Positions 1-62,758 of a DNA stretch of 64,000 bases are shown one piece after another; position 1 is the first letter of the stretch; every line of letters begins with the position of its first letter. The position numbers and the translations under genes were made by a program. Location: the NCBI RefSeq assembly GCF_964355755.1, contig NC_092678.1:15722922-15786921 (forward strand). The letters run 5' to 3'. Source of the DNA: Antedon mediterranea. Lineage: Eukaryota > Echinodermata > Crinoidea > Comatulida > Antedonidae. The notes below the pieces were generated by a model. It worked only from the letters and a program-made list of their open reading frames with translations, was not told where the DNA came from and did not search any database.

Positions 1-226
1 AACTTTTTTCGCACTGCTGTTGATATTACCGCTGTTGTCATCCTTTTCATAACATCTTGAAATTATTACTATTACATTTCCGATGACGGATGATATCCCA
101 ATAAGGAACATCAACACTCGTAATACTTCTCGTTTTAGTAAGTCTTTGCATGAAGCAAAGGTATCGGTCGGCTTGCAGATTTCAATGTCACCAACAAGGC
201 AGCATATGCGAGGAAAATCCGATTCC
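1..226 (-). CDS. Relaxin-receptor-like LGR: start of the 7TM exon (partial)
   Basis: Read on the minus strand from a splice acceptor (AATAG before base 226), the frame is open to the window edge. It encodes a cysteine-containing hinge (RICCLVGDIEICKP), a second cysteine stretch (TDTFASCKDLLK), then a hydrophobic segment, RVLMFLIGISSVIGNVIVI, followed by SRCYEK. The C-x-KP hinge, the LL...RV lead-in and the GN dipeptide of TM1 (Asn 1.50) are the layout of glycoprotein-hormone/relaxin LGRs, and the KP-TD hinge is closest to RXFP types. The acceptor leaves one base (G) to complete a codon, so it is in phase with the CT-ending LRR exon at 1840-1914 (CT+G = Leu). Such receptors sit in the plasma membrane and bind relaxin-like peptides through the LRR ectodomain. 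TM2-TM7 lie before base 1. The acceptor's pyrimidine tract is weak, so the exact exon start is slightly uncertain. Another LGR subtype is possible. Confidence 0.82.
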
Positions 227-593
227 CTATTTTGGTGATGTATAAATAAAAACAGTATTAATTGTAATGTAAACGTGTATATATTGCATTATTAGGAAAT
301 CTTATTCGTCCTCCTGAAAAGGGATTTTTGAATAGTTTTGTTTAATGTGCCATCACATGATAGTTATTTACTTTGACCATGGATCGAAAAAAAAAATTGC
401 ATGAAAAAACTGTAATTTAAAGAAAAGGAAAAAAAATGAAATCAGATTGGCGCTTATTTTGTCTGTTTTTATTACGGCAATGATAAACATTATTAAAACT
501 AAAAAATAGAATATCAAAAGTCTCGTTTTATTATTTGTTATTGTTTATGTTTGTTGGGTACAATACATTTAATTTAAGTTTAATACAATAATT

Positions 594-652
594 ATTATTA
601 TCGAATTCACTATGTCGAAATGTCTTACTATGTCGACATAGTAATTCGATAA
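594..652. repeat. Inverted repeat with an 18-bp perfect palindrome
   Basis: The arms at 594-618 and 632-652 are near-perfect reverse complements. Inside the right half, TACTATGTCGACATAGTA (626-643) is a perfect palindrome. It could be a decayed MITE or simply a hairpin. No other copy was noticed in the window. Confidence 0.6.
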
Positions 653-1161
653 TACTTTCTTACCAGACTATACGTTGATATTAAGTTAGTTATAGATTTA
701 AGTTACCTTATATTGTATGTGAAATTCATTTTCTTAAAGTTAATTTGATGGAAGTATAGAACCATCGGACCAATAAAAATATCAATGTAAACTTCACACC
801 GACTTGTAGGTTCATGTTTTTTCTATCTTTGTTCATGGATTGTATATTATATTAATATATTGCACACTTTTGACGATGATGTTACCTTTCAAAACTATGT
901 GAATACTTACAATTCGTTTAAGTTGATCAAGATTTCAAAAGTACTATCTTTGTAATTTTTTAATCCGTTGCCTTCTATCCTCCTGCAAAAATATTTGAGA
1001 ATAAAAATAAGTAGAGATTCAGTGATGTTAGGTCATGAAGAAGGCAAAAGTTGAGTTGGGGTCACTGTGGACATTTCTCATTCTTGGTTAAACCCTGTAC
1101 GTTAATAACCGTAAGAGTTATCGTAGATCCCACTTAACGTAAGGACGTAAAAGGAAGTAAT

Positions 1162-1214
1162 TTGACCAATCACAACATAACATATTGGTCATCCGAACTG
1201 TTGTGATTGGTCAA
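1162..1214. repeat. Inverted repeat, 16-bp arms
   Basis: TTGACCAATCACAACA (1162-1177) and its exact reverse complement (1199-1214) enclose a 21-bp loop. Flanking sequence on both sides is weakly complementary for some tens of bases more (about 1110-1260), which suggests the core of a palindromic MITE. Confidence 0.5.
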
Positions 1215-1839: not shown

Positions 1840-1914
1840 AGTTTTAACAGTGACGAAGCAAACGCAGAAAATGCACCTTGCTCTATGGTAGTTATAGCGT
1901 TATCATATAAATAT
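1840..1914 (-). CDS. LGR LRR exon type B (last LRR before the 7TM exon), intact
   Basis: This 75-bp exon is bounded on the minus strand by acceptor TGCAG and the perfect donor GTAAGT. It begins with the third base of a codon and ends with the first two (phase 2 at both ends). It encodes one 25-residue LRR beginning YLYDNAITTIEQGAF and ending in SSLLKL, so the L-x-x-N-x-I-x-x-I-x-x-x-A/F signature is present. It is joined in frame to the 7TM exon at 1-226 downstream and to any type A exon upstream. Among five B copies in the window this is the only one with a working donor, and it is also the one adjacent to the receptor core. That supports its being the functional terminal LRR. Confidence 0.8.
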
Positions 1915-2812: not shown

Positions 2813-2844
<32 letters not shown>

Positions 2845-3752: not shown

Positions 3753-3824
3753 AGTTCTGTCAATGATGTCAAACCATCAAACACATTTGCTGGTATTATA
3801 GTTATTTGGTTACGGGATAAACTC
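3753..3824 (-). CDS. LGR LRR exon type A1, intact
   Basis: This 72-bp exon has acceptor GGTTTTCAG and donor GTAAGTGC on the minus strand and phase 2 at both ends. The encoded 24-residue LRR reads SLSRNQITIIPANVFDGL then TSLTEL, a full match to the LRR consensus L-x-x-N-x-I-x-x-I/L-x-x-x-x-F-x-x-L-x-x-L. The last two bases (CT) plus the first base of the next exon give Leu, so it splices in frame to exon B at 1840-1914. It is the intact member of the A1 subtype in cassette 1; paralogues at 41201 and 58875 have lost the donor. Confidence 0.82.
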
Positions 3825-4641
3825 CTGAAAACCGTAAAAAATAAGATAAATAAGTATACACAGTACCAAAGGATAGTACCTGAAACCGTGAAAAATGCGC
3901 TAAATAATAATTATTACAGTTCCCAGGTACATTACGATCAAGAATTATTTTTTGTATTATTCTTGAAAAAACAGATAGCTGTATTGTGCTAAAAGAAACC
4001 AAAGAGCTTCTGTAGCCGATTAAGAATGCCATTCCAACAGTACAGTCATTAAAATGTATACACAAGGATATAATAATACTTGTTGATGTTACTTTGGTCC
4101 TTATTACCATATTATTAAATGACGATGATGCATGCATTCTGCTAATTTATTTTTCATTGTGCGATTATTTCATCAAAGAAGAACAAATTGAAAGATATTA
4201 CGCTTGAACGTATTGCACATGAAACAGATACTTTAGAAGTATTAGTGTATAAATACAATAATTATTATTAGGATAAGGGTAAAAAATGTGCCAAAAAATA
4301 AACAAGATTCAAAGCACTACACAGCTGAGCCCCATGGTTGAATGACAACACATTGTTCACCCGATACAATTTTATGCGAAACAAAACGACAAATAGGCTA
4401 TAGGCTACAAAAAGAAATTAAATGTTTTACTTATAGACAACAGATTTATGCATAATGGCATATTACATTTTTGAAAATTATAATGATGATGATTCTCACA
4501 TTTGTACCGATGCAATTAATACGTCCTAAGTTCACCTAAATACGGAGGGCCCGGATAACGATATACGTGTAGGGCCTACGTAACAGATGCATCTCATGAT
4601 CGATGACGATTTCATAAGAGATATATAACATTTGTTCCGCG
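3825..4641 (-). other. Intron upstream of exon A1
   Basis: This is non-coding cassette sequence conserved with 41273-42140 and 58947-59750, including the block around CCAAAGAGCTTCTGTAGCCG. Open frames here are not conserved between copies. It ends abruptly at TTCCGCG (4641), where the LTR element begins. In the copy at 42140 the same sequence continues without interruption. Confidence 0.6.
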
Positions 4642-7493
4642 TTAAAGCTTCTCTTTTCTGATTTCCTATCAAACAATCTCTTCATTTTACCCTGAGCCTT
4701 CACAAGATTCTTTCTAGCCATCTCACGAGCATGATTTAATCGATCACGAAATTCAGACACATAATCTAATATCGATACAGACTCTTCTGCATTCCCTAAC
4801 AGCCTTTCTTTGACTATTTTAAGAGGGCCTCGGACCGAATGACCATACACCAACTCAAATGGGCTAAACCCTAAGGACTCTTGCACTGTTTTACGAACAG
4901 CGAATAACAATAAGGGAACTCCCTCATCCCATTCCTTTTCACATTGAAAACAATAGGTTTTAATCATATTCTTAAGTGTTTGATGAAATCTCTCAAGTGC
5001 CCCTTGAGACTGTGGATGGTAAGCACTTGAACTTATATGGGCAACACCTAACTGCTCTAAGACTTGTTTAAATATCTTTGACATGAAGTTTGATCCTTGA
5101 TCGGACTGAACAGCTTTAGGCAATCCTACCCATGTAAAGAATTTCACCAATGCTTTAATAACATTCTTAGCTGTAATACGCCTAAGAGGAATCGCTTCTG
5201 GAAACCTACTTGATACACACATTATTGTTAATAGATACTCATTTCCATTTTTAGTACGTGGTAATGGTCCCACACAATCAACAATAACTCTTGAAAATGG
5301 TTCACCAAATGCAGGAATAGGCTTAAGTGGGGCTACTGGAACCTTTTGATTAGGCTTCCCCACTACCTGACACGCATGACAGGATTTACAATAGTTAGAC
5401 ACATCTTTTCTAAGACCTGGCCAAAAGAAATGCTTCAGAATTTTGTCTACCGTTTTATTGACACCTAAATGACCTGAAAGAGGATCATCATGCGCAATAC
5501 CAATAATATCCTGACGGTATCCACTAGGAATAACTATCTGGTGAATCTCATTCCAAACATCACTACTTGGAATATCTGGTGGCCTCCACTTACGCATAAG
5601 TATGCCATCCTTTATATAATAACAAACAGGAACAATAGACATTTTCTCTACAGAAAGAGCTTGCTGACCAAATGACACCAAAGCAGGATCATTACTCTGT
5701 TCTTCCACTAACCTAGACCGATAAAGAACTGTCGGACCGAAATCACACACTTTTGGGTGCTGTTGTTCAGCCTGGGTAGTGTGTGACTCGGGACCTGAGC
5801 AGACAGCCTCTTGGGAAACGCGATCTGTAATTTCTCCGTAAAAACTATCACATAAGTCAATACTCTCATCCTCATCTATGGTTTTATTTGCCATAGATCG
5901 CGTCACCGCACATGATGGAAACACATGTGATAATTCTTTCTCTAAACACACCGTGCTTTCGTCTTCAACAGGACTTTTGCACACAACCGGTTCTACTGTC
6001 ACTCTGTCTCCGGCCAAATCATTCCCCAAAAGGAGTGTGACACCCCATACTGGAAGACTCGGAACGACACCGACAACAAAATCTCCGCTAACAATATCTG
6101 TTTCAATCCGAATTACATGAAGTGGGACTTCCTTATAACCCCCTTCAACACCTTGAATGAGCACACTTGCTCCAGCAGAAGACTCGTTTGAAAATGACAA
6201 TGCCGATTCTATTATCAGGGATTGTGACGCCCCTGTGTCTCTTAAGACACGCACTTTACTCAGATTCACATCGTTGATCAATGCTACAGAACCAGTAGAG
6301 AGGAAAGGCTTAAATAGCTTTCGCACTTTTTCCGGACCTGAAGATTGGATCAACTTCTCACTTTCATCAACGTCATGACTCTCTGTCACTTTCAACGGGA
6401 CTGTATTTACTAACGTGTTTGGAAGTGATTGGGGTTTCTTATTATCCCCTTTAGCTATGCTTTGAAACAGCCAGCAATCTGCCTTTATATGACCCTTTTT
6501 CTTGCAGTAAAAACAAGTTCTGACAAATTTACTACTACTATTAACTGTAGTTTTCTGACTTTGGACCTTAGAATCATCAACAGATTTGGAAACCGATTTG
6601 GTATTCACCACCTTGTGCGTGAGCACATAATTATCGGCAACAGAAGCCGCTTTCATTAAATTATCCACTTTCTGCTCCTCTAGATGTGTACGAACTTCAG
6701 TAGGGGAACAAGATTTAAACTCCTCAACTAACATAAGCTCGCGAAGCTTTCCAAATTCACCGTTTACTCCTTCCGAACTACACCATCTATCAAAAAGAAT
6801 CTGCTTCTTACGTGCAAATTCTGTAAACGTTTGATCATAAGGTTTACCTAAGTTCCGAAATTTCTGACGATACGCCTCTGGAAATAACTCATAAGCTGAC
6901 AAAACAGCAGTTTTGACCGCATCATAGCTTTCACATTGATCAACAGCCAATGCAGAAAATACCTCTTGGGCTTTACCCACAAGAGCAGTTTGTAACAACA
7001 CAGTCCAGTGTCTAGCAGGCCACTTTAATCTATTAGCAATTTTCTCAAAAGCTAAAAAATATGTCTCTACCTCGTCCTCATTAAACTTGGGAACCCATTT
7101 AATATTCTGAGTAATCTCTGAATCATTAGGTGTAGAAACCTGTGTGGTGTGACCCATTTGGTTAGCTAATTCTAATTTTCTTAACTCAAATTCATGTTTT
7201 TCTTTTTCCATTTCCCTTTGCATCTCTATTTTTCTTCTTTCAAAAAAAAAATTTTCACGTTCCAACTCAAATCTAGCCAACTCGACCTCATTCCCCGCAG
7301 TTTTTACGGATTCATGAGTAATTAAACCAACATGATTTCCAATCACATTTATCAAGTCATATTTATTCATGGAATCATTTATAGATGCTCCAACCCTAGT
7401 ACCTAGAAGTCGCAAACGCTCCTCTGATAGCTGAGCTACCACCTCAATGGACATGCTATCCAAAAATTCCTCGTCAAAATCACTTTCTGACAT
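4536..7493 (-). CDS. gag-protease-integrase polyprotein (truncated)
   Basis: The most likely start is the ATG at 7491-7493 (MSESDFDEEF). The frame is open a further 43 codons upstream, but that part is a hydrophobic non-gag stretch in leader sequence. Order: a charged coiled coil (FFFERRKIEMQREMEKEK); a SCAN-like gag domain (WPARHWTVLLQTALVGKAQ); one CCHC knuckle (CFYCKKKGHIKADC, about 6475-6520); an aspartic protease motif (RDTGASQSLI, about 6213-6255); an integrase HHCC zinc domain (GHLGVNK...CKSCHACQ, about 5350-5500); and a DDE core with IVDCVGP, QSDQGSNF and GALERFHQ. After FDRKSEKRSF the frame runs about 100 bp into host intron and ends at 4536, so the last ~35 codons are not part of the element. 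The frame is uninterrupted, but the protein lacks RT. Confidence 0.8.
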   Translation of the reverse strand: MSESDFDEEFLDSMSIEVVAQLSEERLRLLGTRVGASINDSMNKYDLINVIGNHVGLITHESVKTAGNEVELARFELERENFFFERRKIEMQREMEKEKHEFELRKLELANQMGHTTQVSTPNDSEITQNIKWVPKFNEDEVETYFLAFEKIANRLKWPARHWTVLLQTALVGKAQEVFSALAVDQCESYDAVKTAVLSAYELFPEAYRQKFRNLGKPYDQTFTEFARKKQILFDRWCSSEGVNGEFGKLRELMLVEEFKSCSPTEVRTHLEEQKVDNLMKAASVADNYVLTHKVVNTKSVSKSVDDSKVQSQKTTVNSSSKFVRTCFYCKKKGHIKADCWLFQSIAKGDNKKPQSLPNTLVNTVPLKVTESHDVDESEKLIQSSGPEKVRKLFKPFLSTGSVALINDVNLSKVRVLRDTGASQSLIIESALSFSNESSAGASVLIQGVEGGYKEVPLHVIRIETDIVSGDFVVGVVPSLPVWGVTLLLGNDLAGDRVTVEPVVCKSPVEDESTVCLEKELSHVFPSCAVTRSMANKTIDEDESIDLCDSFYGEITDRVSQEAVCSGPESHTTQAEQQHPKVCDFGPTVLYRSRLVEEQSNDPALVSFGQQALSVEKMSIVPVCYYIKDGILMRKWRPPDIPSSDVWNEIHQIVIPSGYRQDIIGIAHDDPLSGHLGVNKTVDKILKHFFWPGLRKDVSNYCKSCHACQVVGKPNQKVPVAPLKPIPAFGEPFSRVIVDCVGPLPRTKNGNEYLLTIMCVSSRFPEAIPLRRITAKNVIKALVKFFTWVGLPKAVQSDQGSNFMSKIFKQVLEQLGVAHISSSAYHPQSQGALERFHQTLKNMIKTYCFQCEKEWDEGVPLLLFAVRKTVQESLGFSPFELVYGHSVRGPLKIVKERLLGNAEESVSILDYVSEFRDRLNHAREMARKNLVKAQGKMKRLFDRKSEKRSFNAEQMLYISYEIVIDHEMHLLRRPYTYIVIRALRI

Positions 7494-7832
7494 AGTTTCT
7501 ATTTGAAACAAACAAACAAAAACACAGGTTAAAATAACCAATATGACGATAATTAAGGCACCAGTAATGAAATACCTGCCAAGCCCACACAGTATTAAAC
7601 CTACCGTGCGCCGTGGTCTCATAAACTAGACCCCTAAAATCAAGGCCAAACAGACTTCTGGTATCACAGACAGGCAAGCCTACACAAGCAAAAACAACAA
7701 CACAGTGTACTGGCTCGACGACCGCCAAATCTTGTTCGTTATAAAACGCCTCTAAACCTAAAACCAGCTTAGAATAAGTAACTAAAATTACCATCAGTTC
7801 GATCTACAAACTACAATTCCGCACTTTGTTCA

Positions 7833-8416: not shown

Positions 8417-8488
8417 AGTTCTGTCAATGATGTCAAACCATTGAAAACATTTGCTGATAATGTTGTTATTTGATTACTGCCCAAATGC
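8417..8488 (-). CDS. LGR LRR exon type A2, intact
   Basis: This 72-bp phase-2/phase-2 exon has minus-strand acceptor GGTTTTCAG and donor GTGAGTAC. The LRR reads HLGSNQITTLSANVFNGL then TSLTEL. It differs from the consensus copy at 24461 at three positions (Y>H, P>S, D>N), all tolerated in LRRs. It lies between exons A3 (10588) and A1 (3753), and both junctions keep the frame. Confidence 0.82.
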
Positions 8489-10587: not shown

Positions 10588-10659
10588 AGTTTTGTCAATG
10601 ATGTCAAACCATCAAACACATTTGCTGTTAATGTAGTTATTTGGTTACCGTACAGCCAC
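10588..10659 (-). CDS. LGR LRR exon type A3, intact
   Basis: This 72-bp phase-2 exon has minus-strand acceptor GGTTTTCAG and donor GTGAGTGC. The LRR reads WLYGNQITTLTANVFDGL then TSLTKL. The Trp-Leu-Tyr-Gly start distinguishes subtype A3. The paralogue at 43365 has a one-base deletion, so this is the only readable A3 copy in the window. It is the first exon of the intact cassette 1 in transcript order. Confidence 0.82.
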
Positions 10660-14310: not shown

Positions 14311-14369
14311 GAAGCAAACGCAGAAATGCACCTTGCTCTATGGTAGTTATAGCGTTATCATCTAAATAC
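14311..14369 (-). pseudogene. Degenerate LRR exon type B
   Basis: The acceptor side (TGCAG, then YLDDNAITTIEQGAF) is preserved. One A is missing in the AAAA run at about 14324, which shifts the frame, and the 3' end with the donor is gone: after GCTTC the sequence reads TGAG instead of GTCACTG...GTAAG. It cannot be spliced like the copy at 1840-1914. The loss of the 3' end is shared with the copies at 45589 and 58069. Confidence 0.75.
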
Positions 14370-16789: not shown

Positions 16790-19700
16790 CGGATAACCCA
16801 CTTCCTGGAGGGCTTTTAATCACACCCTTAATAGTCAAGTTAGAACATATGGGCCCAGTTAAATTTAGAGTTCCTTTGTCAAATTCTAGTAAAGAAATTA
16901 GGCTAAATAGAAACTTTAAAATTGCCACTGCTTTCATCCGCCAGTCTATAACGCATCACAGTCCGGAAGTTCACTGTAACTCAAGTACGGCCTCAAACAA
17001 TTTTAATTTTGATAGCTCGCCAATTTCACATATAGGTAAGGCGAAATTTATTAATTTACTTAATAATCATCCGAATGTTTTTTCAAAGAATGATTTAGAT
17101 ATAGTGAGAACTTCGTCTGTAAAACATAAAATACACATAACTAATGACACCCCATTCAGTCAACCTTGTAGGAGGATACCTGATCTGATTTCAATGATGC
17201 TAGGGACCTCATTCAAGATTTATTAAGGAAGAATATCATTAGAGTCCGAAAGCCAGTATATCTCTCCTATAGTATTAGTCAGGAAAAAGAAGACTAACGA
17301 AATTCGATTATGTATAGATTACAGACTTCTAAATTCTAGGTCGGTTAGGGACCAATACAACGTCCCCAAAATTGAAGATGCCCTTACAACCTTACGTGGT
17401 GCCAAATGGTTCTCATGTCTTGACCTCAAATCAGGCTATTACCAAATTGAAATGGCTGAGGAGGATAAAGCAAAAACTGCATTTTGGTGTCCATTGGGAT
17501 TCTATGAATTTAACCGAATGCCCCTAGGGATTACTAATGCCCCGCCACCTTCCAACGACTGATGGAAAAGTGCATGGGGGAGTTAACATTTTCCAACGTT
17601 CTAGTTTATTTAGATGACTTACTAGTTTTTTCAACCACATTAGACGAACACCTTGCTAAGTTAGACAAAGTATTATCTAGGCTTGAAGAGTATGGCTTGA
17701 AACTATATCCAGACAAGTGCAATTTTGCCCAAACGTCCATTAAGTGCTTGGGCCATGTCATATCGGAGGATGGGATAAGCACTGACCCAGATAAGGTAGA
17801 GGCTGTCAAATCTTGGCCTCGCCCCTCAAATGTAAAAGAATTGAAATCATTTCTAGGTTTTGCTGGTTATTATCGACGATTTATACAGCATTATAGCCAT
17901 ATTGCCAAACCATTAAACCAACTTATGACTAAGTATGACCCAATACGTAAACGAGGTAAAACTTTCAAAAAACCGAAATCAAATACTCCCTCAGACAGGC
18001 GCCCTAGTCCTAATACTCCATTTGGTACTAATTGGTCCGAATCATGTCAGGTGGCATTTGATGTACTAATAGATAAATTGTCTTCAGCCTCTATATTAGG
18101 ATTCGCAGACTACAATTCACCATTTATTCTACATACCGACGCTAGCACAAGCGGGTTAGGTGCAGCCCTATATCAAGAGATAAATGGGATAAAGAGGGTA
18201 ATTGCCTATGCTAGTCGTGGGTTATCCAAAAGTGAAGCCAATTATCCTGCTCATAAATTAGAGTTTCTTGCCCTAAAATGGGCTGTGACTGAGAAATTTA
18301 CTGACTATCTTTATGTTCAACTATTTGTAATTTACACGGATAATAACCCCTTAACGTACGTGTTGACGACAGCTAAGCTTGACGCTACAGGCCAAAGGTG
18401 GCTTGCCGCCCTGGTCAATTACAACTTTGATATTAGATACAAAGCAGGTAGAAACAATCAAGATGCAGACGGTCTTAGTCGTCGCCCACGTGACCCCCCT
18501 TCCAATGACTTTGAATACGAACAATATCAAGAGAAAGCTAAAGCTGACGAAGTGTTAGGTAGAGTAAAATGTTCATCCTGTTCGTTCACAGCAGTCTGTA
18601 ATGCTAAAATAGTTAATACGTCTACTATACCTAATGATACAACACCCTTAGTTGAGTCAGTTAGTGATTCTCCTGATGCAATCCCCGCCATCTATGATAA
18701 CCCTATTAGGCCTATAGATGGGCAGTCAACCTTGCCTAATGTTACTGCAGCGGAGTGGGTAGAGCATCAACAACAAGACCCTAATATTAAACCTATTTTT
18801 AAATTTGTATATAACAAACGGAAACCTACACAAGATGAACTCACAAAATTACCCGAGGAAACTAGGCTACTCCTGAGACAGTTTGATACATTATTGGTAA
18901 AAGATAATATTCTATACCGCCAATTTGTAAATATTATCGGAGCTATGCAATTGCAATTAGTACTTCCAACCGCTTATAGAAATAAAGCATTTACTGGCTT
19001 ACATAATGACATTGGTCACCCTGGGATGGAACGGACCTTGGATCTTGCCCGATCCAGATTTTATTGGCCTCGTATGTCCTCCCAAATTGAAGATAAATGT
19101 AGGTGTTGTGAACGTTGTGTCCGAAGAAAGGCCCGTGCTACCAAAGCAGCCCCCCTAGTTAGTGTCAGAACCACCATGCCTATGGAATTAATGTGTATTT
19201 ACTTTCTGTCTATAGAACCTGATTCTAAGGATACTAGAATGTGTTAGTTGTGACTGACCATTTCACTAGATATGCTATTGCTATCCCAACCAAGGACCAA
19301 AAAGCCCCCACAGTAGCAAAAGCTCTGTGGAATAACGTCTTTCAACATTATGGCTTTCCAAAACAATTACATTCAGATCAAGGCAGAGATTTCGAATCAA
19401 AAGTTATCCAAGATTTATGTAAATATTTAGGAGTAAGAAAATCTCGTACAACCCCATACCATCCCCAGGGTAATGGTCAGGTAGAACGGTTTAACCAAAC
19501 CCTGCTTAAAATGCTAGGCACTCTAGAAAACCAAAAGAAAGAACATTGGCGAGACCATGTTGCACCCTTAGTGCATACATACAATTGTACTAAGAATGAT
19601 GCTACGGGAATGTCCCCATATTATTTAATGTTTGGTAGAGAAGCCCGCCTCCCAATTGACATCCAACTAGGTATTGACCCAAACCAAAATGGTTCACTTT

Positions 19701-24460: not shown

Positions 24461-24532
24461 AGTTCTGTCAATGATGTCAAACCATCAAACACATTTGCTG
24501 GTAATGTTGTTATTTCATTACTGCCCAAATAC
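24461..24532 (-). CDS. LGR LRR exon type A2 (cassette 2), intact
   Basis: This 72-bp phase-2/phase-2 exon has minus-strand acceptor GGTTTTCAG and donor GTGAGTGC. The LRR reads YLGSNEITTLPANVFDGL then TSLTEL, the closest of all copies to the family consensus. It is the only surviving exon of cassette 2; A1 is lost at X1, B is dead at 14311 and no A3 is present. Splicing directly to 10588-10659 would keep the frame. Whether it is used needs transcript data. Confidence 0.75.
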
Positions 24533-35582: not shown

Positions 35583-35615
35583 TGTATGGTAGTTATAGCG
35601 TTATAATCTAAATAC
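35583..35615 (-). pseudogene. Fragment of LRR exon type B at a recombinant junction
   Basis: Only the first 33 bases of exon B remain (acceptor TGCAG, then YLDYNAITT). Beyond them the sequence switches without a gap to GATTTGATACGAATTGTATAA, which elsewhere (23910, 60300) lies in the A2 intron. The junction looks like an unequal exchange between non-equivalent cassette positions. Confidence 0.65.
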
Positions 35616-41200: not shown

Positions 41201-41272
41201 AGTATTGTCAATGATGTCAAACCATCAAACACATTTTCTGATATTGTAGTTATTTGATTACTGTATAAACTC
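41201..41272 (-). pseudogene. LRR exon type A1 with destroyed splice donor
   Basis: The 72-bp LRR frame is intact (SLYSNQITTISENVFDGL then TSLTIL) and the acceptor GGTTTTCAG is kept. The donor is TTGAGTGC instead of GTGAGTGC. Read-through gives an immediate in-frame TGA two codons later. The same GT-to-TT change is present in the copy at 58875, so both derive from one already damaged ancestor. It might serve as a truncating terminal exon, but the simplest reading is a dead exon. Confidence 0.75.
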
Positions 41273-43364: not shown

Positions 43365-43435
43365 AGTATTGTCAATGATGTCAACCATTAAACACATTTG
43401 CTGGTATTGTAGTTATTTGGTTATGGTACAGCCAC
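43365..43435 (-). pseudogene. LRR exon type A3 with 1-bp deletion
   Basis: Splice sites are intact (TTTTCAG, GTGAGTGC) but the exon is 71 bp: one A is missing in GTCAAACCAT (near 43384), so the TSLT... end is out of frame. The rest reads WLYHNQITTIPANVF, clearly the A3 subtype. Inclusion would shift all downstream exons. Confidence 0.78.
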
Positions 43436-44804: not shown

Positions 44805-45588
44805 TTAGAAACGTCGTTTTTGTAACACTGTCTGTGTTTCATACGGCAGAATGTCATTTTAAACTAAGCTGGTCAATTACAATTGTGTAGAGGTAGGAGC
44901 AGAAACTGTTGACGTTGTTTATCTGACAATTTGGTAATACAGAACACCATGACATCACATGCCTGTATCATTAGCTTATGAATTACGTTATGGTATATGA
45001 TAGTAGGTGATACATGTGAAACAAGTGATGTTGTATTACCGAATGTTCCTATGATACTATATAAATACAATACAATACCAAGAATCAGGTGTATGTTAGA
45101 CGTTACTTCGGTTTGGAATGTAGGTCTTAGCTTTAACCATCTTAATTCTGTAATGTGCCTGTACAATTTTTTTAGGCAAACATTTTTAACGTGTATACAT
45201 AGATAGGGTGCCGTATAGACATATGTATTGTCTAATTGCTTAATCTTTTCTGAAAAAATGTAGTTTCAGAGTGTCAGTTTTAACTTGGCTGGTTCAACAT
45301 AATATTTGAGATGAATGCAGTGTGTAGAGGTAGGAGGAGAAACTGTTGGGGTTGTTTATTTTCTATAAACGTCAAACCGTATGAGAATCGGGTGTACAAC
45401 GCCAGTGGCCTTAAGAATACGTGTATTTCTATTAAAACGTTTTAACATTTTACAGACTATGTCTACAAAAGGCCTACGTAGTGTGTTGTATGTAAAATAG
45501 AATTTGGTATTCCGATGAATATTGTTCAGACCATACAAACAACTGCATGCAGATTATTAAATTGTCACACAGTTAAGTATTAACTCAT
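44805..45588 (-). other. Cassette intron 3' of the B remnant at 45589
   Basis: Collinear with 13525-14310 and 57286-58068, including AGGTAGGAGGAGAAACTG. No conserved open frame is seen. Confidence 0.5.
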
Positions 45589-45647
45589 AAGCAAACGCAG
45601 AAAATGCACCTTGCTGTATGGTAGTTATAGCGTTATCATCTAAATAC
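45589..45647 (-). pseudogene. Degenerate LRR exon type B
   Basis: Acceptor and first part are preserved (YLDDNAITTIQQGAF). The 3' end carries the same deletion as the other dead B copies: after GCTTA comes TGAGTTAATAC, so the SSLLKL end and the donor are missing. The only nearby GT (CT|GTGTGA) would leave a different phase from all other LRR exons. Confidence 0.72.
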
Positions 45648-46250: not shown

Positions 46251-46322
46251 AGTTCTGTCAATGTTGTCAAACCATCAAACACATTTGCTGGTAATGTTGT
46301 TATTTGATTACTAGATAAAACC
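46251..46322 (-). CDS. LGR LRR exon type A1 (cassette 4), intact
   Basis: This 72-bp phase-2/phase-2 exon has minus-strand acceptor GGTTTTCAG and donor GTGAGTGT. The LRR reads VLSSNQITTLPANVFDGL then TTLTEL, with no defect. It is the farthest-upstream intact LRR exon in the window. The neighbouring B (45589), A3 (43365) and A1 (41201) are broken, so in-frame use would mean splicing over them to 24461 or 10588. Confidence 0.72.
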
Positions 46323-52700: not shown

Positions 52701-54425
52701 GGTTTGTGGGGCTGGCAAATTTCGGATAGCTGCACACCTGTCGCCTAATGGTCTGATACATGCGTGTCTTGAAGAATTAATCAGGATGTTGTGTCCCATA
52801 TATTGCCCTTTATTCTTGAATAACTTACATTTCTTTAGACAAATTCTAAAACCATTTAATTGTAGGGCTTGTAAAACGGAAACGAGGTGCTGCTTATGAG
52901 CAAATTTGTCTTGGCTAAATAAAATAATATCATCGTGATGGGCGATACAGAATTCTCTAGAATTTGGGATTTCATTTAAAATTTCGTCAATCTTTGCTTG
53001 AAATATACCTGGCGAAACGTTTAATCCTTGTGCTAATCTCTTATAATAATAATGTTTTCCACCATGATATGAAGCTATACCTGTATATTGTTGGGCATGT
53101 TCGGCTAATGGTACACAGTGGAACGCTGATTTCAAATCAATTACGCTAAGAATCTGTGAATTAGCGTTACCTATTGTTTTCAAAGTTTCAGCTAATAATG
53201 GGAATGGGTGATTAATACGTTTTATCCTGGAATTTAGATAGCGAAAGTCTGTGACAACTCTTTCATCTTTTGAATTTTTCTTTGAAACAAGAAGGACAGG
53301 GGAAGTATACGATAGGTGTCCTACTGATAAGATTCCTAGTTTGACTAATTTGTTCAATTCGGCCTCAATAACATGTTTGTCTTTGTCTGTCGCGAAGTAT
53401 GGTCGAATAAAAAATGGTTCATCGTTAGAGAGGTGTATGTCAGCTTTGAAGTTTGGGCAGCTAGATAGTTCAACATAAAGTGAAAATCCGTTTCTGTTTT
53501 GTTGTAATGTTTTATACAAATCCTCTTTTTCTCTATGTGTTAAAACGCTGTCTGTTAAATCAACTTGTTTTCTAATTATTTCTTCCTCGGTTAAAGATAG
53601 CAATGGGTCTGTACGTTCTAAATGTGGGTACTTGTTTGCGTTGTCATTGGTCAACTTTATTCTATCTATTGGTAGGTTATTAGTAACTGTTACAAGGTTG
53701 GTTAAGTGAAGGCTCGCGATAGGTTGATGTGTATTTAGAGATACGTTTCTGTTTGTGTTGTTAGTGATATCAATGTTGGTTTCTTCTCTATGTAATTTCA
53801 CTAACATATCTGATGGACAAAGTTTTGAAATATGGGTAGTTGCATGTAGAACAACATCAGAATTGCGTACAAAGGCGGGAACCCTTCCTTTTAATTTAAC
53901 TGTTTTAGTATCACCGGGTTTAAGAAAAATCTTGTGTACTGGACGAAAGCTAAAAATCTTTGGTCTAATGCGAAAGGTGTTTTCCTTAAAATTTAAAGTA
54001 CCGTCGAGTTCAGACAATATTTCGGTTCCAAGTATCAGGTCAATACCTGTTAAATTGTTAACGATTAATGCTGAAATTTTAAATTTGTGTCCTTGGATAA
54101 ATAATTCGAATTGCACTAAGTGGTTGGCATATAAGAAGTCACCGTTACCTAATCGAAATTTAGTTGTGTTCACTTTAATTGGCTTTAGACGCGATAAATA
54201 AAGTGAGGAATTAACGTACGATTGTGAGATTATAGTTCTAGTTGAACCACTGTCAAATAAAGTTAAAACATTTCTACCATCTGGTAAATTTCCTTTAACG
54301 TAATTTCTGTCGTTAAGTAACAAATCGATCTTATCTGAATTCCCTAAGTATTTTGCCTTAAAATTGTCGTATTTAGTATGGGGGGCCAGATTATAGGCGG
54401 CATCTAGTCCCCTTTTTAAAAATCC
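49710..54425 (-). CDS. Ty3/gypsy-type pol polyprotein (PR-RT-RH-IN), intact frame
   Basis: One uninterrupted frame of over 1,530 codons on the minus strand. It is open from the gag stop region (about 54425) and ends at 49710. Order: aspartic protease (TLFDSGSTRTI); RT (VIDLKSAFHCVPL, AQGLNVSPGIFQ, catalytic AHHDDIILFS at about 52927-52955); RNase H (LYSDTSRTATGSYL, ELELFGL, FVDHSAIV, LADFLSRAP); a proline/threonine-rich linker; integrase zinc and core (C-x2-C in CLRCQQ, LDFKSM, SDAATSLTG, SLQVERH); and a GPY/F-like module (AEWVGPLVIHEVLD). The RT active site has His-His in place of the usual Tyr-x before the two aspartates. All other catalytic residues are present. The intact frame suggests a young insertion. 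Confidence 0.88.
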   Translation of the reverse strand, partial: GFLKRGLDAAYNLAPHTKYDNFKAKYLGNSDKIDLLLNDRNYVKGNLPDGRNVLTLFDSGSTRTIISQSYVNSSLYLSRLKPIKVNTTKFRLGNGDFLYANHLVQFELFIQGHKFKISALIVNNLTGIDLILGTEILSELDGTLNFKENTFRIRPKIFSFRPVHKIFLKPGDTKTVKLKGRVPAFVRNSDVVLHATTHISKLCPSDMLVKLHREETNIDITNNTNRNVSLNTHQPIASLHLTNLVTVTNNLPIDRIKLTNDNANKYPHLERTDPLLSLTEEEIIRKQVDLTDSVLTHREKEDLYKTLQQNRNGFSLYVELSSCPNFKADIHLSNDEPFFIRPYFATDKDKHVIEAELNKLVKLGILSVGHLSYTSPVLLVSKKNSKDERVVTDFRYLNSRIKRINHPFPLLAETLKTIGNANSQILSVIDLKSAFHCVPLAEHAQQYTGIASYHGGKHYYYKRLAQGLNVSPGIFQAKIDEILNEIPNSREFCIAHHDDIILFSQDKFAHKQHLVSVLQALQLNGFRICLKKCKLFKNKGQYMGHNILINSSRHACIRPLGDRCAAIRNLPAPQTHKETKRFIGAVNYVSHFFPQIQSILRPLHTLASKRRKFVWSTDHQKAFDEIKQLMVKPPTLQMPRKEGRFTLYSDTSRTATGSYLTQTVNGKEHIIGYYSKILPQASQRYSVTELELFGLYINVSAFRHLLKGCEFDAFVDHSAIVQIWNSKDQPCTPRLQKLILRLSGYIFQIGYKKGTELVLADFLSRAPRDDDSEIDQVVPIAFNIIETESLNPITNTSTCRPVTRSYAKKMGINIPDLHQPKPVQTPVINQNPVTTNTRPTPQPTATPQIITRQQTNAHRSPPIITPPIVTPPPIRNVNIRQPPEERLVDKSKQSKDTTHRNVPVELYTSLKPLVPNITEFKSAHIPKQRDLDRLMDVIQRKIIRDYNLPVDVKQLRVEQETSPFFKPVYDYLAHDILPADKKAARAVQNKSEQYILCNGLLFRLFFQDKGGEFVLQLAVPENLAETVISQYHDNLLSSHQGTMRTYLTIRKLFYMPLMFEKVNNYTQACLRCQQFRPKTDKLRPLHDRVPATYRPFHTLSLDFKSMPTSPSGFKHIVVVCDEITRFLICVPLKSIDAETICEALIQKVISIFGPPSRLISDAATSLTGKLLTLLCNTLNIDRKIISVHNHGSLQVERHIRTISDLLKVNLNQFGTDWVRFVSTTCYAYNSFSSPHLGNHFPYELVFGRQPPSLTSLAFNPISGLSHSYEEYFHHLKKKFQNISQTMLQLQRTQQNVQNSKISQRLEKSPIYSVGQLVYLYKPTSSSLTANSKKIAAEWVGPLVIHEVLDRTHYILATIKGEILRDVFNYKRLKPCFMRTPKERKHFTHLQKLKQLSNEPTDDNNDKIQNTINVVNDETNVEFVDEHDRTPAKLQSDTLTHPTKVEPLNLQPYIDCVENNMRLAAPFQMKEEQIKEQTNLIMTAPNDSNITLNRGRFKAGHFQVLVSYSKPTLVKHNTDKAKQESNDRTFWWNIDRYNDTEKLIKEIINDKQIPISGSPKRFIKRLYNATSY

Positions 54426-54426
54426 T
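54408..54426 (-). promoter_or_regulatory. Putative -1 frameshift site at the gag-pol junction
   Basis: On the minus strand the gag frame ends GAT TTT TAA within GATTTTTAAAAAGGGG. The pol frame, shifted by -1, is open across this point (TTA AAA AGG GGA CTA). The T5A5 run directly at the gag stop is a plausible slip site. It does not fit the strict X-XXY-YYZ heptamer in the gag frame, so the mechanism is inferred. Confidence 0.4.
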
Positions 54427-55372
54427 GCTGGTGGCTAGGGTAGTAATTGTTTGACTGTTGGTATGGGTATGGCGGGGGATAGTTTCCGTAAGAACGGTTT
54501 TGTTGTCGGCAGTACCTTGCTATGTGGCCTGGTTTCCCGCAGTAATAACAGGTTGGGGGAGGTTGTCTATATCTTGGGGTCGGTGGGGTCTGGAATCGGG
54601 GTTTGTATGGGCTTGGGCTTCGGTTTCGTCTTGGGATATAATTTCGGGTGGGGGAACGTGAGCGTCGAGTATCATCATTAAGGGATCGTTTTGTTGTGGC
54701 CATGTCTAACTTGATAGAATTTATCTCATGTTGGAGCGATTCGAGACTATCTGTTTCCTTATTGATATTGAATGAAACTTCCCGTGTGGCATCATCTACG
54801 GAAAGGTCAAGGTAATTTTGTGTGCTATTTACGATATTGTCAATAGTGGCATCGATTGGGGTGGACATGGCTACAGCTGCTCTACATTTTGGTGGAAGGG
54901 TCGAAATAAATTTATTCTTTATCTGCTGGTCAGCGTATCCAATTCTGTCTGCGGCTTGTTTGATTTTGGTTAAGTGTTTTTCGGCATTGTCGCCAGTGGT
55001 GTAAGTAATTGAATCGTATTCTCTTATGTGCGCATAGATTGATTTGTTTTTACTAAACCTGTTGATGAATTGGGTTTTTAAGGATTCCAGTGAATCGAAC
55101 TGCTTTCCCTCAATCCAGAGTCTAGCTTGGCCCTGGAGGCTACGTTTAAAAATACTTATTACATTAATTAATTGGGCATTGTTTACAGGGTTTTCTAAAG
55201 TGTGGGCCTCAAGGTAGTCGGTAAACGATAAGTAATGTGCACTACATTGGTCGTGATCGGTTATGGAACCGTCATATCTTTTGGGAAGGAAATCGGTTTG
55301 TCTTAGGTGGGGCACGGGATGAGGATTGACGGGCTCATTTAAAATTACTTCGTTATCAACAACGTCGACCAT
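54416..55372 (-). CDS. gag protein of the same LTR element
   Basis: An intact 318-residue frame from the ATG at 55370-55372. Residues about 20-190 look like a retrotransposon gag capsid region (QTDFLPKRYDGS, FKRSLQGQARLWIEG, a following helical set). A basic, proline/arginine-rich stretch (RRSRSPTRN, YIPRRNRSPSP) follows. One CCHC nucleocapsid knuckle (CYYCGKPGHIARYC) lies near the C-terminus. It ends where pol begins in the -1 frame. It would form the particle that packages the element RNA. Confidence 0.85.
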   Translation of the reverse strand: MVDVVDNEVILNEPVNPHPVPHLRQTDFLPKRYDGSITDHDQCSAHYLSFTDYLEAHTLENPVNNAQLINVISIFKRSLQGQARLWIEGKQFDSLESLKTQFINRFSKNKSIYAHIREYDSITYTTGDNAEKHLTKIKQAADRIGYADQQIKNKFISTLPPKCRAAVAMSTPIDATIDNIVNSTQNYLDLSVDDATREVSFNINKETDSLESLQHEINSIKLDMATTKRSLNDDTRRSRSPTRNYIPRRNRSPSPYKPRFQTPPTPRYRQPPPTCYYCGKPGHIARYCRQQNRSYGNYPPPYPYQQSNNYYPSHQQDF

Positions 55373-58068: not shown

Positions 58069-58128
58069 GAAGCAAACGCAGAAAATGCACCATGCTCTAT
58101 GGTAGTTATAGCGTTATCATCTAAATAC
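58069..58128 (-). pseudogene. Degenerate LRR exon type B
   Basis: Acceptor (here CCAG) and first part are preserved (YLDDNAITTIEHGAF, SAFASELKLN). An in-frame TGA follows and the donor region is deleted in the same way as at 14311 and 45589. Apart from the missing donor the LRR frame is clean, so the splice-end deletion was probably the first damage. Confidence 0.72.
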
Positions 58129-58874: not shown

Positions 58875-58946
58875 AGTATTATCAATGATGTCAAACCATC
58901 AAACACATTTGCTGATATTGTAGTTATTTGATTACTGTATAAACTC
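58875..58946 (-). pseudogene. LRR exon type A1 with destroyed splice donor
   Basis: A 72-bp clean LRR frame (SLYSNQITTISANVFDGL then TSLIIL) and acceptor GGTTTTCAG, but the donor reads TTGAGTGC, exactly as at 41201. Read-through meets an in-frame TGA. Probably dead. Confidence 0.75.
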
Positions 58947-60507
58947 CTGAAAACCGTAAAAAATACGATAAATAAATATACACAGTACCAAAGGATAGTA
59001 CCTGAAACCATGAACAATGCGTTAAATAATAATTATTACAGTTCCCATGTACATTACGATCAAGAAGTATTTATTTATAATTCTTGAAAAAACAGATAGC
59101 TGTATTATACTAACAGAAACCAAAGAGCTTCTGTAGCCGATTAGGAGTGCCTTTCCAACAGTACAGTCATTAAAATGTATACACAAGGATATAATAATAC
59201 TTGTTGATGTTACTTTGGTCCTTATTACCATATTATTAAATGACGATGATGCAACATGAATTCTGCTATTTTATTTTTCATTGTGGGATTATTTTATCAT
59301 AGAAGAACAAATTTAAAGATATTACGCTTGAACGTATTGTACATGAAACAGATACTTTAGAAGTATTAATGTATAAATATAATAATTATTATTAGGCTTA
59401 GGGTCAAACTGTGCCTGCAAATAAAAAAGATCCAAAGCACTACACAGCTGAGCCCCCTGGTTGAATGACAACACATTGTTCACCCGATACAATTTTCTGC
59501 AGAACCAAACAAAGAATATACAAAAAGAAATTAAATTTAATTAATTTTAGATAAACAATTTAGAATAATGGCATATTAAATTATCGATAATTATAATGAT
59601 GATGATTCTCTCATTTGTGTCGATGCAATTGATAAGTCATAAAGTTCACCGAACTTATTATAACGATATATGTGTAGGGTCTACGTAACAGATGCATCCC
59701 AGTATGACGATTTCATAAGAGATATATTATAACGTTTTGTTCTGCGTGCTGCTCAACTTATTACTGTCAACACTATTGCAGTATATTTTACATAATCGAA
59801 ACAATGTCGAGCATTCCTTCTCGTGTGGACAACCACATAGAGAAACTTGAACATGTGAACGCTGTTATGTTACCCGGTTCTCAGTCTTCACATACGACAA
59901 TTATTTACCCTGAGGACAATTTGGTAATACAGAGCCTCATATCATAATAGTGCTATCTGTATCATTAGCTTATGAATTAGGTTATGGCCTATCATAGTTT
60001 GTGATACATATGAAACATGTAAATGATGCTGTATTACCGAATGTTGCTATGATGCTACAGAAATCGAGATACAATACCAAGAATCAGGTTATGTTAGACG
60101 TTACTTCGGCTTGAAATGGAGGTCTTAGCTTTAACCACCTTCTGAAATGTGACTGTACAATTTTGTGAGGCCAAAATTATACCTTGTACACATGGATAAG
60201 GTGCCGTAGAGACATATACTATTGTCTAATTGCTAAATCCTTTCTGAAATTGTTATTTTCTGAAGAATGTTGTCCATAGATATAACACCGTACTACTGAT
60301 TTGATACGAATTGTATAATTGTAACATAATGTGAAATGTTCCTTACCATGCTAGTAATGGTGCAGTAATTAAATAATTACATGATTTGTAAATTAGTTTT
60401 TATTATCACAGAGTGTAACACAGTGTGACGTATTGTCTGCAAACTCTTATGAATGGTGAATTAATATGTATTTTATAATAATTATGTAATTTCTCATTTA
60501 ATAAAAC
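58947..60507 (-). other. Cassette-5 intron between the A2 and A1 remnants
   Basis: The most complete insertion-free copy of this interval. It continues through the points where cassette 1 has the Gmr1-like element (about 59745) and where cassettes 2/3 have X (about 60120). Useful as the reference for empty sites. A plus-strand MSSIPSRVDN frame at 59803 is short and not intact in sister copies. Confidence 0.55.
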
Positions 60508-61624
60508 TCGTGTCTATTTTCAGTCACTATTGACTTCAGTGGAAATTTCTTCTATGAATGGATTAGTAAATGGAAGCATGAACACCAGTTGATAAAACAG
60601 TTCCATTTTGAGTTTGCAATCATTCGTGAAAGGCCAAGTGAAGTCACAAGTCCAAGGAATAAAGGTTTTCATCCTATAAAAAAAATTGTACGCAATCAAT
60701 TGAAACTAATAAATATTTTACACACGCTATAATAATAATTCGCAAACAGTGATGGTGCTGGAATATGCATACAAGGGGTCAACATGCGTGATGCAAAAAT
60801 AAAAAAAATATTGATTTTGCCCTGCCTTTGTCGACTATAAATCATGACATAAATAGGCCAAGTCTTGAGTCGATGTCTATATATGGCGCTACTCTATAGT
60901 ATGTGCCTATATAGGCCTCGTATCGTACCATATAGGCTCAATAAATGTATTAATTATTGTTAAGTTAAGTACGCTTCTAGGCCTGTATATTATTATAAAT
61001 AGAAATCTAGGCCTATTATTTTTCTTGAACACCAAAAGCCTGAACTTATTTAATTAACATATCCTGGCCATAGTAACTAAATACAACAGTCCTCTGAGTC
61101 TGAGTATAGGCTCTAGTGTGTTTAAAGCCCACCCACCTACGTAAAACACGTGGGTATAGCCATAAAACTTTGAATGAGTGGTAAACTGGGCCTAGATCTG
61201 CCGTTAAAACAATTTTAATTCTAGAGGTTCAACAACTATTTAAGTACCAAAAAATGTTTATTTTGGTTCTTTAAAAAATTCAACAGACACGTGGTGCAAT
61301 TTTTGCCGTAATCATAACAAAAAGCAACAAAAAAACTATTAAAATATCTCATTATTTCAACTACTCACCACGACCAAAGTATTCAAGCTACGTATCTCAA
61401 AATCGATTCCCACAACAACCAGGACATTCCTAATGAATATTCATGAGAAATCTCACCGATTTCAACAATCAAAGGCTTCTGATTCGTTGATTAAATATGA
61501 TGTAATTATTTTCCCTAAATAAAAACAAATCATTTCCGCGTTTGTATAGCGCCCTCAATATCGAAAATATTTAACTTTTACCGATAGAAGGCTCACTACT
61601 TTATGTCGCTATGAAACAGCCGTG
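60508..61624. mobile_element. Left-truncated copy of the CACRGCTGTT TIR transposon
   Basis: Other cassettes read AATAAAACATACCAG without a break; here 1.1 kb is inserted. The right end (GAAACAGCCGTG), the subterminal GCGCCC and ATGAATATTCATGA match the 4.8-kb element at 35946-40788. The left end does not match the TIR and is presumed lost. The interior holds many AGGCCTA motifs and one open frame (60524). Confidence 0.6.
60524..60732 (+). CDS. Possible exon of unknown protein in the TIR transposon
   Basis: Not recognised. After an acceptor-like CTATTTTCAG the plus strand is open for about 69 codons to TAA at 60730-60732. It has protein-like composition: TIDFSGNFFYEWISKW, then HQLIKQFHFEFAIIRERP. 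It may be a transposase remnant or captured host exon. There is no start codon, so if real it is an internal or last exon. Confidence 0.3.
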
Positions 61625-61890
61625 ACATACCAGTTATAATAACACATCACTGTAATAAAACAGACGAATCCAAGCAAACTGCATTGTGTTAAAATATTAC
61701 AGTTTTCTTTTATCATTATTAAGATAATAATAATATTAAAAAAAAAAACACCGGGTAGGCCTATATTATTTTAGATTTGGATAAATATTCTGTAATTGTA
61801 AAGGATAAGTAAAACGATGACAATGACAATTGTGGTTATCTTACAACGAAATATTATTTTCAAAAGTACGATAAATAAGAGACAGTACTC

Positions 61891-61936
61891 AAACACATTT
61901 GCTGGTAATGTTGTTTTTTGATTACTGTCCAAATCC
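61891..61936 (-). pseudogene. Partial LRR exon type A2 (3' end deleted)
   Basis: The acceptor GGATTT...TTTTCAG side and 46 bp of exon remain (DLDSNQKTTLPANVF; the conserved Ile is now Lys). The TSLTEL end and donor are removed by a ~30-bp deletion that joins AGTACTC to AAACACATTTGC. The frame runs on into intron. Confidence 0.75.
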
Positions 61937-62758
61937 CTGAAAACCGTGAAAAAGCAATAACAATGATATATATATATAGTTTCAAGGTACAGTATGATCA
62001 ACAATCATATGTTCATACTTTCTAAAAGCAACAAATAGCTACAGTATTGTGCCAAAAGAAGCCAAATGCTCCTGTCGCCGATTAGGCGTGCCACTGCAAT
62101 AGTAAAATGTATAATACTATTTAAAATAATAGTACTTGTTGATATTACTTCGGCCCTTATATTATCATTGTTTACATACATAACATTAATAACTATTTGT
62201 CATTAACTGCTTTTACATTATTATAATGACAATATCAATAATATGATTCGTGGATATGGATCAACATCTACAATACAATACAATCGACAATAGCCATATT
62301 ACAAACACACATATTATTAAACGATGTGATGATCCATGTATTCTGCTAATTTTTGTTCGCATACACACTGCTAAATTAGAAAAACTCAAACAAGAAAGAT
62401 GTTACGCTTTCACGTTTTACATATGAAACATACAGGTACCATACAAGTGTTCAATTATAAAAAAAAAGTATTTCTCCCGAGGCGTAGGTTCAAAATGTGC
62501 CAGAAAATAAACATGATTACTGAATCATGACAACATATTGTCCACCCGGTACAATTATCTGCGAAACAAACGATATTAATCTAAAAAAAAAAATCTAAAA
62601 TCCAAATATAAACCTGAAATAATGAAAAGTAATTCATATACATCAGAATATGAATAACGTCATACATTTCCGATAATAATAATTAAATAATTAATTAATT
62701 AAATCTCAATTTTAAAGAAATACACAAGTTAAAATAGAAATAAAGTGTATATAGCATG
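61937..62758 (-). other. Cassette-5 intron upstream of the A2 remnant
   Basis: Collinear with 8489-9010 and 24533-25265 (GTCGCCGATTAGG). It stops within AGTGTATATAGCATG, where an LTR element is inserted; the uninterrupted form is at 9000 and 25255. Non-coding. Confidence 0.5.

Follow-up and report, generated by a model that had tools for sequence, protein, structure and literature searches.

An LRR-exon cassette array upstream of an LGR-type 7TM exon in the crinoid Antedon mediterranea, in a probable family of recognition receptors

Type C LGRs (RXFP1/2, LGR3, LGR4 and GRL101) combine an LRR ectodomain, a cysteine hinge and a rhodopsin-type 7TM domain. Type C1 (RXFP1/2 and LGR3) is marked by an N-terminal LDLa module, and GRL101 (type C2) by several LDLa modules. 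In the portions of PMC8286064 available to us, each of their LRRs corresponds to one exon, single-LRR exons are reportedly skipped at times, and the ambulacrarians studied have one ortholog of each LGR type; phase-1 introns in TM2 and TM5 are given as a trait of some type C1 genes in the accessible part of PMC11863921. The Antedon family described here shares with type C LGRs the LRR ectodomain, the hinge, the 7TM domain of LGR kind and the coding of one LRR by one exon, and on these features it is placed among the LGRs, the joining of its A exons being deduced from order and phase. Unlike type C LGRs, it has about 70 paralogs in the genome, LRR exons repeated as cassettes and an excess of ligand-face change; an LDLa has so far not been found in it, and some relatives are without a 7TM. 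The TM2/TM5 introns of type C1 are absent, as the 7TM of the locus is one open exon. Its closest solved relative is relaxin receptor 1 (RXFP1, E 5.6e-43), its Antedon relatives are named GRL101-like by NCBI, and the best 34 Foldseek matches of one of them, the NCBI model P0085, are all LGRs; in the AlphaFold model of this protein, the LRR part is good (block means 81-97 for residues 71-250), the 7TM is poor, and the mean across all residues is 61. In a tree of 30 rows, the 14 crinoid rows form a clade (100/100) that has Amphiura P0091 as its sister (96/90) and lies outside the clade of most arthropod and two mollusc rows; the deeper forks are weak.

The window, that is, the whole stretch of 64,000 nucleotides analysed, had been described in a preliminary way as carrying fourteen single-LRR exons or remnants, all minus-strand and arranged in repeated cassettes whose introns are homologous. 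All fourteen were found at their places (Table 1), and self-BLAST of the window yields many same-strand repeats that connect these places; a fifteenth LRR exon, Z, had been missed, and the exon at 46251, correctly located, resembles A1 but has diverged from it strongly, with 78-79% identity in slices and about 82% across 0.9 kb. Among the alignments of at least 1 kb listed by self-BLAST, identity is 73-89%, and some contain no LRR exon. Slice comparison gives 90-93% identity within class A1 (A1_1, A1_3 and A1_5), 91% between A2_1 and A2_2 (80% for A2_5), 93% between A3_1 and A3_3, and 79-94% among class B copies; the peptide is weakest for B3 (tblastn E 0.9), the DNA of which matches other copies of B at 79-94%. 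An exon scanner (AG, a phase-2 LRR of 66-78 nt, GT; score cut 7), run on both strands of a 224-kb region, detected 11 distinct LRR exons (12 rows), all of them on the minus strand; the best score of the plus strand was 6.9, below the cut. The array continues beyond the window with four more exons, whose peptide core is identical, at 66.0, 72.6, 77.4 and 136.3 kb.

Table 1. Exons and exon remnants of the window
Feature	Position	Strand	Remarks
7TM domain, 5' part (one exon, hinge ESDFPRICC...)	1..226	-	acceptor AATAG|G common to paralogs L029 and L030
LRR exon Z, intact, 72 nt phase 2	911..982	-	scanner; conserved in L029 and L030
LRR exon B1, intact, 75 nt phase 2	1840..1914	-	includes scanner match
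LRR exon A1_1, intact, 72 nt	3753..3824	-	includes scanner match
LRR exon A2_1, intact	8417..8488	-	includes scanner match
LRR exon A3_1, intact	10588..10659	-	includes scanner match
B2 remnant, 1-nt deletion and splice donor gone	14311..14369	-	
LRR exon A2_2, intact	24461..24532	-	includes scanner match
B3 remnant, truncated	35584..35615	-	
A1_3, open frame, donor GT to TT	41201..41272	-	
A3_3, frame broken by 1-nt deletion	43365..43435	-	
B4 remnant, donor removed by 16-nt deletion	45588..45647	-	
LRR exon A1_4, intact, diverged A1-like copy	46251..46322	-	self-BLAST, scanner, slices
B5 remnant, 16-nt deletion as in B4	58069..58128	-	
A1_5, donor GT to TT like A1_3	58875..58946	-	
A2_5 remnant, truncated past F of repeat	61888..61936	-	

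Seven of the 15 LRR exons are intact, among them the five closest to the 7TM, and the other eight are dead through loss of the donor, frameshift or truncation. Every intact LRR exon that was found is symmetric, with phase 2 and a length of 72 or 75 nt, so that the frame survives when a block of such exons, introns included, is duplicated, lost or skipped. Since B2, B4 and B5 have one 16-nt deletion in common, and A1_3 and A1_5 the same dead donor, dead exons have been copied along in the duplications. B2-B5 can be discarded as usable exons, the donor being gone or the exon truncated. The cassettes are not copies of transposable elements either, as their units hold an intron and an LRR exon, and the four large retroelement frames that sit among them fall between units. 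The duplication proposed earlier is real; the accompanying claim that it changed LRR number, and hence ligand binding, stands only in part, because most extra exons of the window are dead and much of the amplification no longer alters LRR number. Among the extra cassettes, A2_2 and the exon at 46251 could still do so, and the number of repeats may in turn alter binding.

The 7TM exon lies at the cassette-1 end, as previously noted: it is a single exon that begins at 226 on the minus strand and exits the window, with 226 nt inside it and a frame continuing to about -776. This open frame comprises 355 aa, including intron-derived leader codons. A Pfam scan of positions 1-1500 of the window, with stops read as X, returned no family, presumably because only about 75 7TM codons lie there; the 7TM was found in the flank. 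The cassettes were rightly placed upstream of an LGR-type 7TM domain, and their assignment to a single gene is supported by the order A-B-Z-7TM and by splice sites, both of which recur in paralogs, so that the window exons are probably spliced into one mRNA. The next 7TM match of the minus strand lies 243 kb upstream. When B, Z and the 7TM of L029 are joined at these splice sites, the product agrees with the NCBI protein P0001 at every one of the 69 residues checked; the 334-residue 7TM tail of P0001 is identical to L029; P0001, a model of the neighbour gene, contains B-Z-7TM and omits the A exon of that gene. In the slice L047 (C7), A and Z are present and B was not seen. The N-terminal pieces of P0006 and P0007 had no credible match in the 224-kb region, which ends 154 kb past the window start, and LDLa was detected neither in a pattern search of that region's minus strand nor by Pfam in five related proteins.

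The genome contains about 70 related 7TM exons, many of them tandemly clustered: of the 93 matches to a 140-residue 7TM probe, 70 extend over 120 or more of these residues with no less than 43% identity, and 59 of the 70 reach at least 55%. Of the four genes that were read over some 10 kb or more, three have multi-exon LRR cassettes. The C8 gene has a four-exon unit of 2315 bp twice, with a third copy begun, the gene at 18.04 Mb of C7 has a three-exon unit of about 2482 bp, and the P0085 model contains a three-LRR unit twice; no cassette was seen in the 9.9 kb read of the gene at 4.08 Mb of C7. Nine copies on C9 and one on C8 retain the hinge and have no 7TM at their end. A gene model of this TM-less form was also sought among proteins; the 7990 candidates with most words in common were scored, and three of them matched at E <= 1e-40, none recognised as such a model. 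For A exons, 40 of 116 candidates were scored, and their genome count is a lower bound.

Apparent selection differs along the gene. Across 24 A exons, the exposed positions {1,3,4,6,23} have accumulated 64 nonsynonymous changes, or 5.14 per site, compared with 1.87 per site for synonymous (2.8-fold, P 2e-6) and 1.55 per site for intron changes (3.3-fold, P 2.6e-12). The counts come from Fitch parsimony on FastTree trees, without a gene-conversion model, and the P values are approximate; the excess persists with a tree built from intron flanks only and without two broken exons. The five positions follow the LRR consensus LxxLxLxxN, as given in the available part of PMC3138743. They were picked after the C9 exons had been viewed and fixed before the L075 array was fetched, and there the values were 2.32 nonsynonymous, 0.47 synonymous (P 7e-5) and 0.46 intron, in an array that is new, although not wholly foreign, as two LRRs were already known from P0009, a related NCBI model. 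The C8 exons were also viewed ahead of their own test. The exposed set ranks 13th-14th among 33,649 five-position sets; within it position 6 is the weakest, and framework positions 11 and 10 are fast as well. Concave positions of A exons are thus under apparent diversifying selection, and this excess would reflect positive selection for ligand change. B and Z exons have no such excess (w about 0.9), and the 7TM is mostly under purifying selection, with w 0.28 against the neighbour gene and 0.15 against a second close paralog; the pair L053-L054 differs by six nonsynonymous and one synonymous change.

In the variable lymphocyte receptors (VLRs) of agnathans, which are put together somatically from LRR cassettes, concave LRR positions are variable and the framework is kept. 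The Antedon A exons resemble them in the concentration of change at concave positions, a likeness of working and not of membership. Unlike in VLRs, the diversity seen in Antedon is germline and most members bear a 7TM. The echinoderm immune family Sp185/333 (SpTransformer), as far as the accessible account goes, is also clustered, repeat-rich and quick to duplicate; its proteins are unrelated to those of Antedon and are not known to contain an LRR or 7TM.

At a probability of about 0.7, we favour a reading in which the gene whose 3' part lies in the window belongs to an LRR-GPCR recognition family that is specific to crinoids, has expanded in tandem and owes its diversity to duplicated cassettes and ligand-face selection. 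According to this model, the 3' module B-Z-hinge-7TM would stay fixed and carry signalling, while the upstream A-type LRR exons would be copied as multi-exon cassettes, the copies of which decay or persist; in persisting A exons, selection would push the concave ligand-binding face to new residues. The receptors would likely recognise numerous different ligands, probably of protein nature and of chemosensory, self/gamete or microbial kind, and the family looks more like recognition receptors than a classical hormone receptor. A broader version can be put forward only tentatively, namely a germline-diversified LRR recognition repertoire derived from a hormone-type GPCR, with 7TM and TM-less, possibly secreted, forms drawing on common hypervariable cassettes in an immune, self-nonself or gamete role, and with extra diversity from exon skipping or from copy number differing between individuals.

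It could be argued that the window copy is a dying gene, in which cassettes spread by unequal crossing over now decay without functional consequence, the family being alive only elsewhere. The dead exons and their copying along, the retroelement frames among the exons and the omission of the A exon from the neighbour's NCBI model agree with this, and the window 7TM reads SGEF in place of SGEC, at a position that is C in 13 and S in 1 of 14 other Antedon proteins; because of this residue and the eight dead exons, the copy could be declining. However, the gene retains five intact exons next to the 7TM and an open 355-aa frame with its low w, and the A exons of the window differ from their closest paralogs mostly at exposed positions, which makes this explanation unlikely. 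Still less probable is a Dscam-like scheme in which the cassettes act as alternative exons, either mutually exclusive or skipped freely, and each gene gives many isoforms: the symmetric phase of the intact exons and the reported skipping in LGRs would permit it, but NCBI models such as P0085 join successive LRRs and the dead exons could not serve. As for an ordinary relaxin- or insulin-type hormone receptor with an LRR number changed by chance, the RXFP1 and Foldseek matches speak for it, yet the number of paralogs, the nonsynonymous excess on the concave face, the LDLa not seen so far and the one-exon 7TM make it very improbable. For the same reasons (one of some 70 paralogs, concave A positions apparently diversifying, no LDLa so far), the designation as a hormone receptor in the preliminary description is doubtful.

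If the recognition-family reading is true, a GPCR of relaxin-receptor kind has turned into a large, fast-evolving crinoid recognition family in which the repeat-exon array is the unit of innovation. One family would tie intragenic cassette duplication to ligand-face selection and would provide a system for the direct testing of LRR number and ligand specificity. It would also extend the picture of one ortholog per LGR type in the ambulacrarian species studied, as drawn in the available portions of PMC8286064.

Each of the 14 places to which the preliminary description had assigned single-LRR exons holds an LRR exon or a remnant of one on the minus strand, B3 (class B, cassette 3) being weak by peptide and clear by DNA. 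In self-BLAST of the window, same-strand repeats join these places, with 73-89% identity in the listed alignments of at least 1 kb, and comparison of 601-nt slices bears out the proposed classes A1, A2, A3 and B. The exon at 46251 in cassette 4, taken for an A1 exon, is indeed A1-like in both comparisons, but as a diverged copy. Over shorter stretches of the slices the A types also resemble one another, at 67-82%, which suggests that single-exon duplication probably came before cassette duplication. A scanner for phase-2 LRR exons of 66-78 nt bounded by AG and GT, run at the same cut on both strands of 224 kb around the window, finds 11 distinct LRR exons (12 rows) on the minus strand, exon Z among them, and none on the plus strand. 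When the contig is followed past the window, as had been proposed, the array goes on with four further LRR exons. Large open frames of LTR-type retroelements, all three with integrase and two with reverse transcriptase and RNase H, lie between the cassettes.

Features in and around the window, with positions counted from the window start (negative, beyond it)
Feature	Position	Strand	Remarks
7TM exon	starts at 226; frame to about -776		355 aa open, intron-derived leader codons included
LRR exon Z	911-982	minus	found by scanner; absent from the preliminary description
LTR-type frame	4539-7625	minus	
LTR-type frame	17538-19244	plus	
LINE-like reverse-transcriptase frame	26255-30959	plus	917 aa; a 278-aa frame with no Pfam match precedes it
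LTR-type frame	49713-54434	minus	
Further LRR exons	66.0, 72.6, 77.4, 136.3 kb		common peptide core, good splice sites; 92-98% alike in slices
Many tandem repeats (L017-L022)	+82,000 to +133,000		units of ~1.5 kb, 75-99% alike; flanked by the 77- and 136-kb LRR exons

Seven of the 15 LRR exons in the window are intact (Z, B1, A1_1, A2_1, A3_1, A2_2 and the exon at 46251; suffixes give the cassette) and eight are dead (B2, B3, B4, B5, A1_3, A1_5, A3_3 and A2_5). B2, B4 and B5 have all lost their splice donor through a common 16-nt deletion; B1 and the B exons of two paralogs retain this donor, and B3 is truncated ahead of the deletion point. From the common deletion we infer that cassettes 2, 4 and 5 at least derive from a copy that had already lost a working B exon, so that new cassettes could bring A repeats, never a second B. 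A1_3 and A1_5, 93% alike, share a donor change from GT to TT.

Among solved structures, the window 7TM is best matched by relaxin receptor 1 (E 5.6e-43). The next same-strand 7TM match lies 243 kb upstream in gene direction, so that the LRR exons seen are part of the window gene, if of any. The order A1-B-Z-7TM recurs with the same splice sites in two paralogs, and also in a gene on contig C8 and two on C7. In 10 further 2.3-kb slices the scanner finds Z in nine (all except L045) and B in five, the slices without a scanner-positive B being L047, L048, L050, L051 and L052, some of which may be too short; in L047, A and Z are both present and the interval separating them holds no B. Spliced B-Z-7TM of the neighbouring paralog L029 gives the sequence of its NCBI model, the Antedon mediterranea protein P0001, whose 334-residue tail is identical to L029; the A1 exon of L029 is not in that model.

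The 354-Mb assembly (18 contigs), in which the window occupies C9:15722922-15786921, was searched with a 140-residue 7TM probe, and all 115 candidates were scored. There are 93 matches, 70 of which cover at least 120 residues at an identity of at least 43% (59 of them at least 55%); two of the 70 have an internal stop and at least two more lie in frames below 200 aa. Many are clustered, on C1, C3, C5, C7, C8, C9 and C10. C9:16.724-16.739 Mb (L030, L033) is a recent tandem array of four plus-strand 7TM exons at ~5.13 kb spacing, one with a stop, and the one spacer read there has no scanner-positive LRR exon. At C7:4.08-4.48 Mb, four 7TM exons of equal match score, ~120-140 kb apart, suggest that very large gene units were duplicated recently. 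Cassette repetition is habitual in the family: of the four genes read over at least ~10 kb, three have it, among them the window gene. The C8 gene holds 11 A exons, B, Z and 7TM inside ~8.2 kb, with a 4-exon unit of 2315 bp present twice and begun a third time, and five of its exon slices exactly duplicate others. A 3-exon unit of ~2482 bp recurs in the C7:18.04 Mb gene, which has 10 A exons, and the NCBI model P0085 has a 3-LRR unit twice, with one residue different; the 9.9 kb read of the C7:4.08 Mb gene contain three A exons without any repeat unit.

The crinoid sequences in a tree of 30 rows (10 from Antedon, counting the window, and four from Anneissia) form a clade with support 100/100, to which an Amphiura protein is sister (96/90); the clade's deeper position within the type-C LGRs is uncertain. 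Veenstra reports a single ortholog for each of the LGR3, LGR4 and GRL101 types in every ambulacrarian examined, even though attempts were made to find more (PMC8286064). No published account of the crinoid family was found among titles and opening lines of abstracts in a body of literature with few subscription journals, nor in passages of PMC8286064, PMC11863921, PMC6267866, PMC11521371, PMC9793003 and PMC3138743.

The window gene and its neighbour are separated by 11 nonsynonymous and 11 synonymous changes in the 7TM (per-site ratio w 0.28), and by 12 and 0 in exons A1, B and Z together. Positions 1, 3, 4, 6 and 23 were taken as exposed, following the concave LRR consensus. In the predicted model of P0085, whose LRR part is confident (residues 71-250, block means 81-97) and whose 7TM part is poor, strands every 24 residues carry positions 23 and 1, directly followed by the remaining exposed positions; LGRs are its top 34 PDB matches. 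In 24 A exons, the set of 25 less one identical copy and still with the broken A1_3 and A1_5, the exposed positions have 64 nonsynonymous changes, 5.14 per site, vs 1.87 per synonymous exon site (P 2e-6), 1.55 per intron-flank site (P 2.6e-12) and 0.77 per nonsynonymous framework site (P 1.6e-19). The excess over synonymous holds with an intron-flank-only tree (P 6e-7) and without the broken exons (P 5e-6), and in 12 disjoint nearest pairs nonsynonymous to synonymous changes are 53:5 at exposed and 25:18 at framework positions. The C7:18.04 Mb array (nine of 10 exons distinct) was fetched once the five positions were fixed, two LRRs of the related NCBI model P0009 being already known; it gives 2.32 exposed nonsynonymous vs 0.47 synonymous and 0.46 flank changes per site (P 7e-5 and 4e-10). 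The C8 array (eight of 13 slices distinct), known ahead of the test, gives 1.66 vs 0.14 and 0.47 (P 1.4e-5 and 1e-5). Across five non-overlapping gene pairs, two of them compared in both exons and three in a single exon, B and Z have w ~0.9 vs 0.27 for 7TM (Fisher P 0.016), and the excess is therefore observed in A exons only. Contrary to the general trend, one of these 7TM pairs, L053-L054, has 6 nonsynonymous changes to 1 synonymous.

Some relatives lack the 7TM. Nine copies at C9:16.97-17.85 Mb and one at C8:18.21 Mb keep the hinge residues, and variants of FRELMCPMDSTRSTEDF followed by a stop replace the 7TM, the C8 tail being different after its variant. Ten of the 11 hinge loci read without 7TM are open, the exception being C4:23.12 Mb. 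For one copy a longer stretch was read: B and Z are intact upstream of it, and ~2 kb downstream contain no 7TM. The C9:16.97-17.85 Mb region holds 28 of 43 A-exon matches among those listed (40 of 116 candidates scored); intact exons are present in 16 of the 20 A-exon slices read, and in 11 of the 15 from this region. The hinge-tails of a C9 and the C8 copy differ by 14 nonsynonymous changes over 126.7 sites and six synonymous over 32.3, which points to weak constraint; these copies may encode a secreted protein.

Exon anatomy, duplication, decay, family size and rate excess at concave positions are matters of observation. The mechanism proposed is that unequal crossing-over between intron-homologous units would copy blocks of symmetric phase-2 LRR exons, so that the reading frame would be preserved at any LRR number; dead exons would be skipped, and selection would favour new residues on the ligand face of the surviving repeats and conserve the signalling part, the 7TM. 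The use of the family may be immune, gametic or chemosensory. Given its size, its clustering and the rapid change on its ligand face, the role of this GPCR family would be best explained as the recognition of varied external or non-self ligands.
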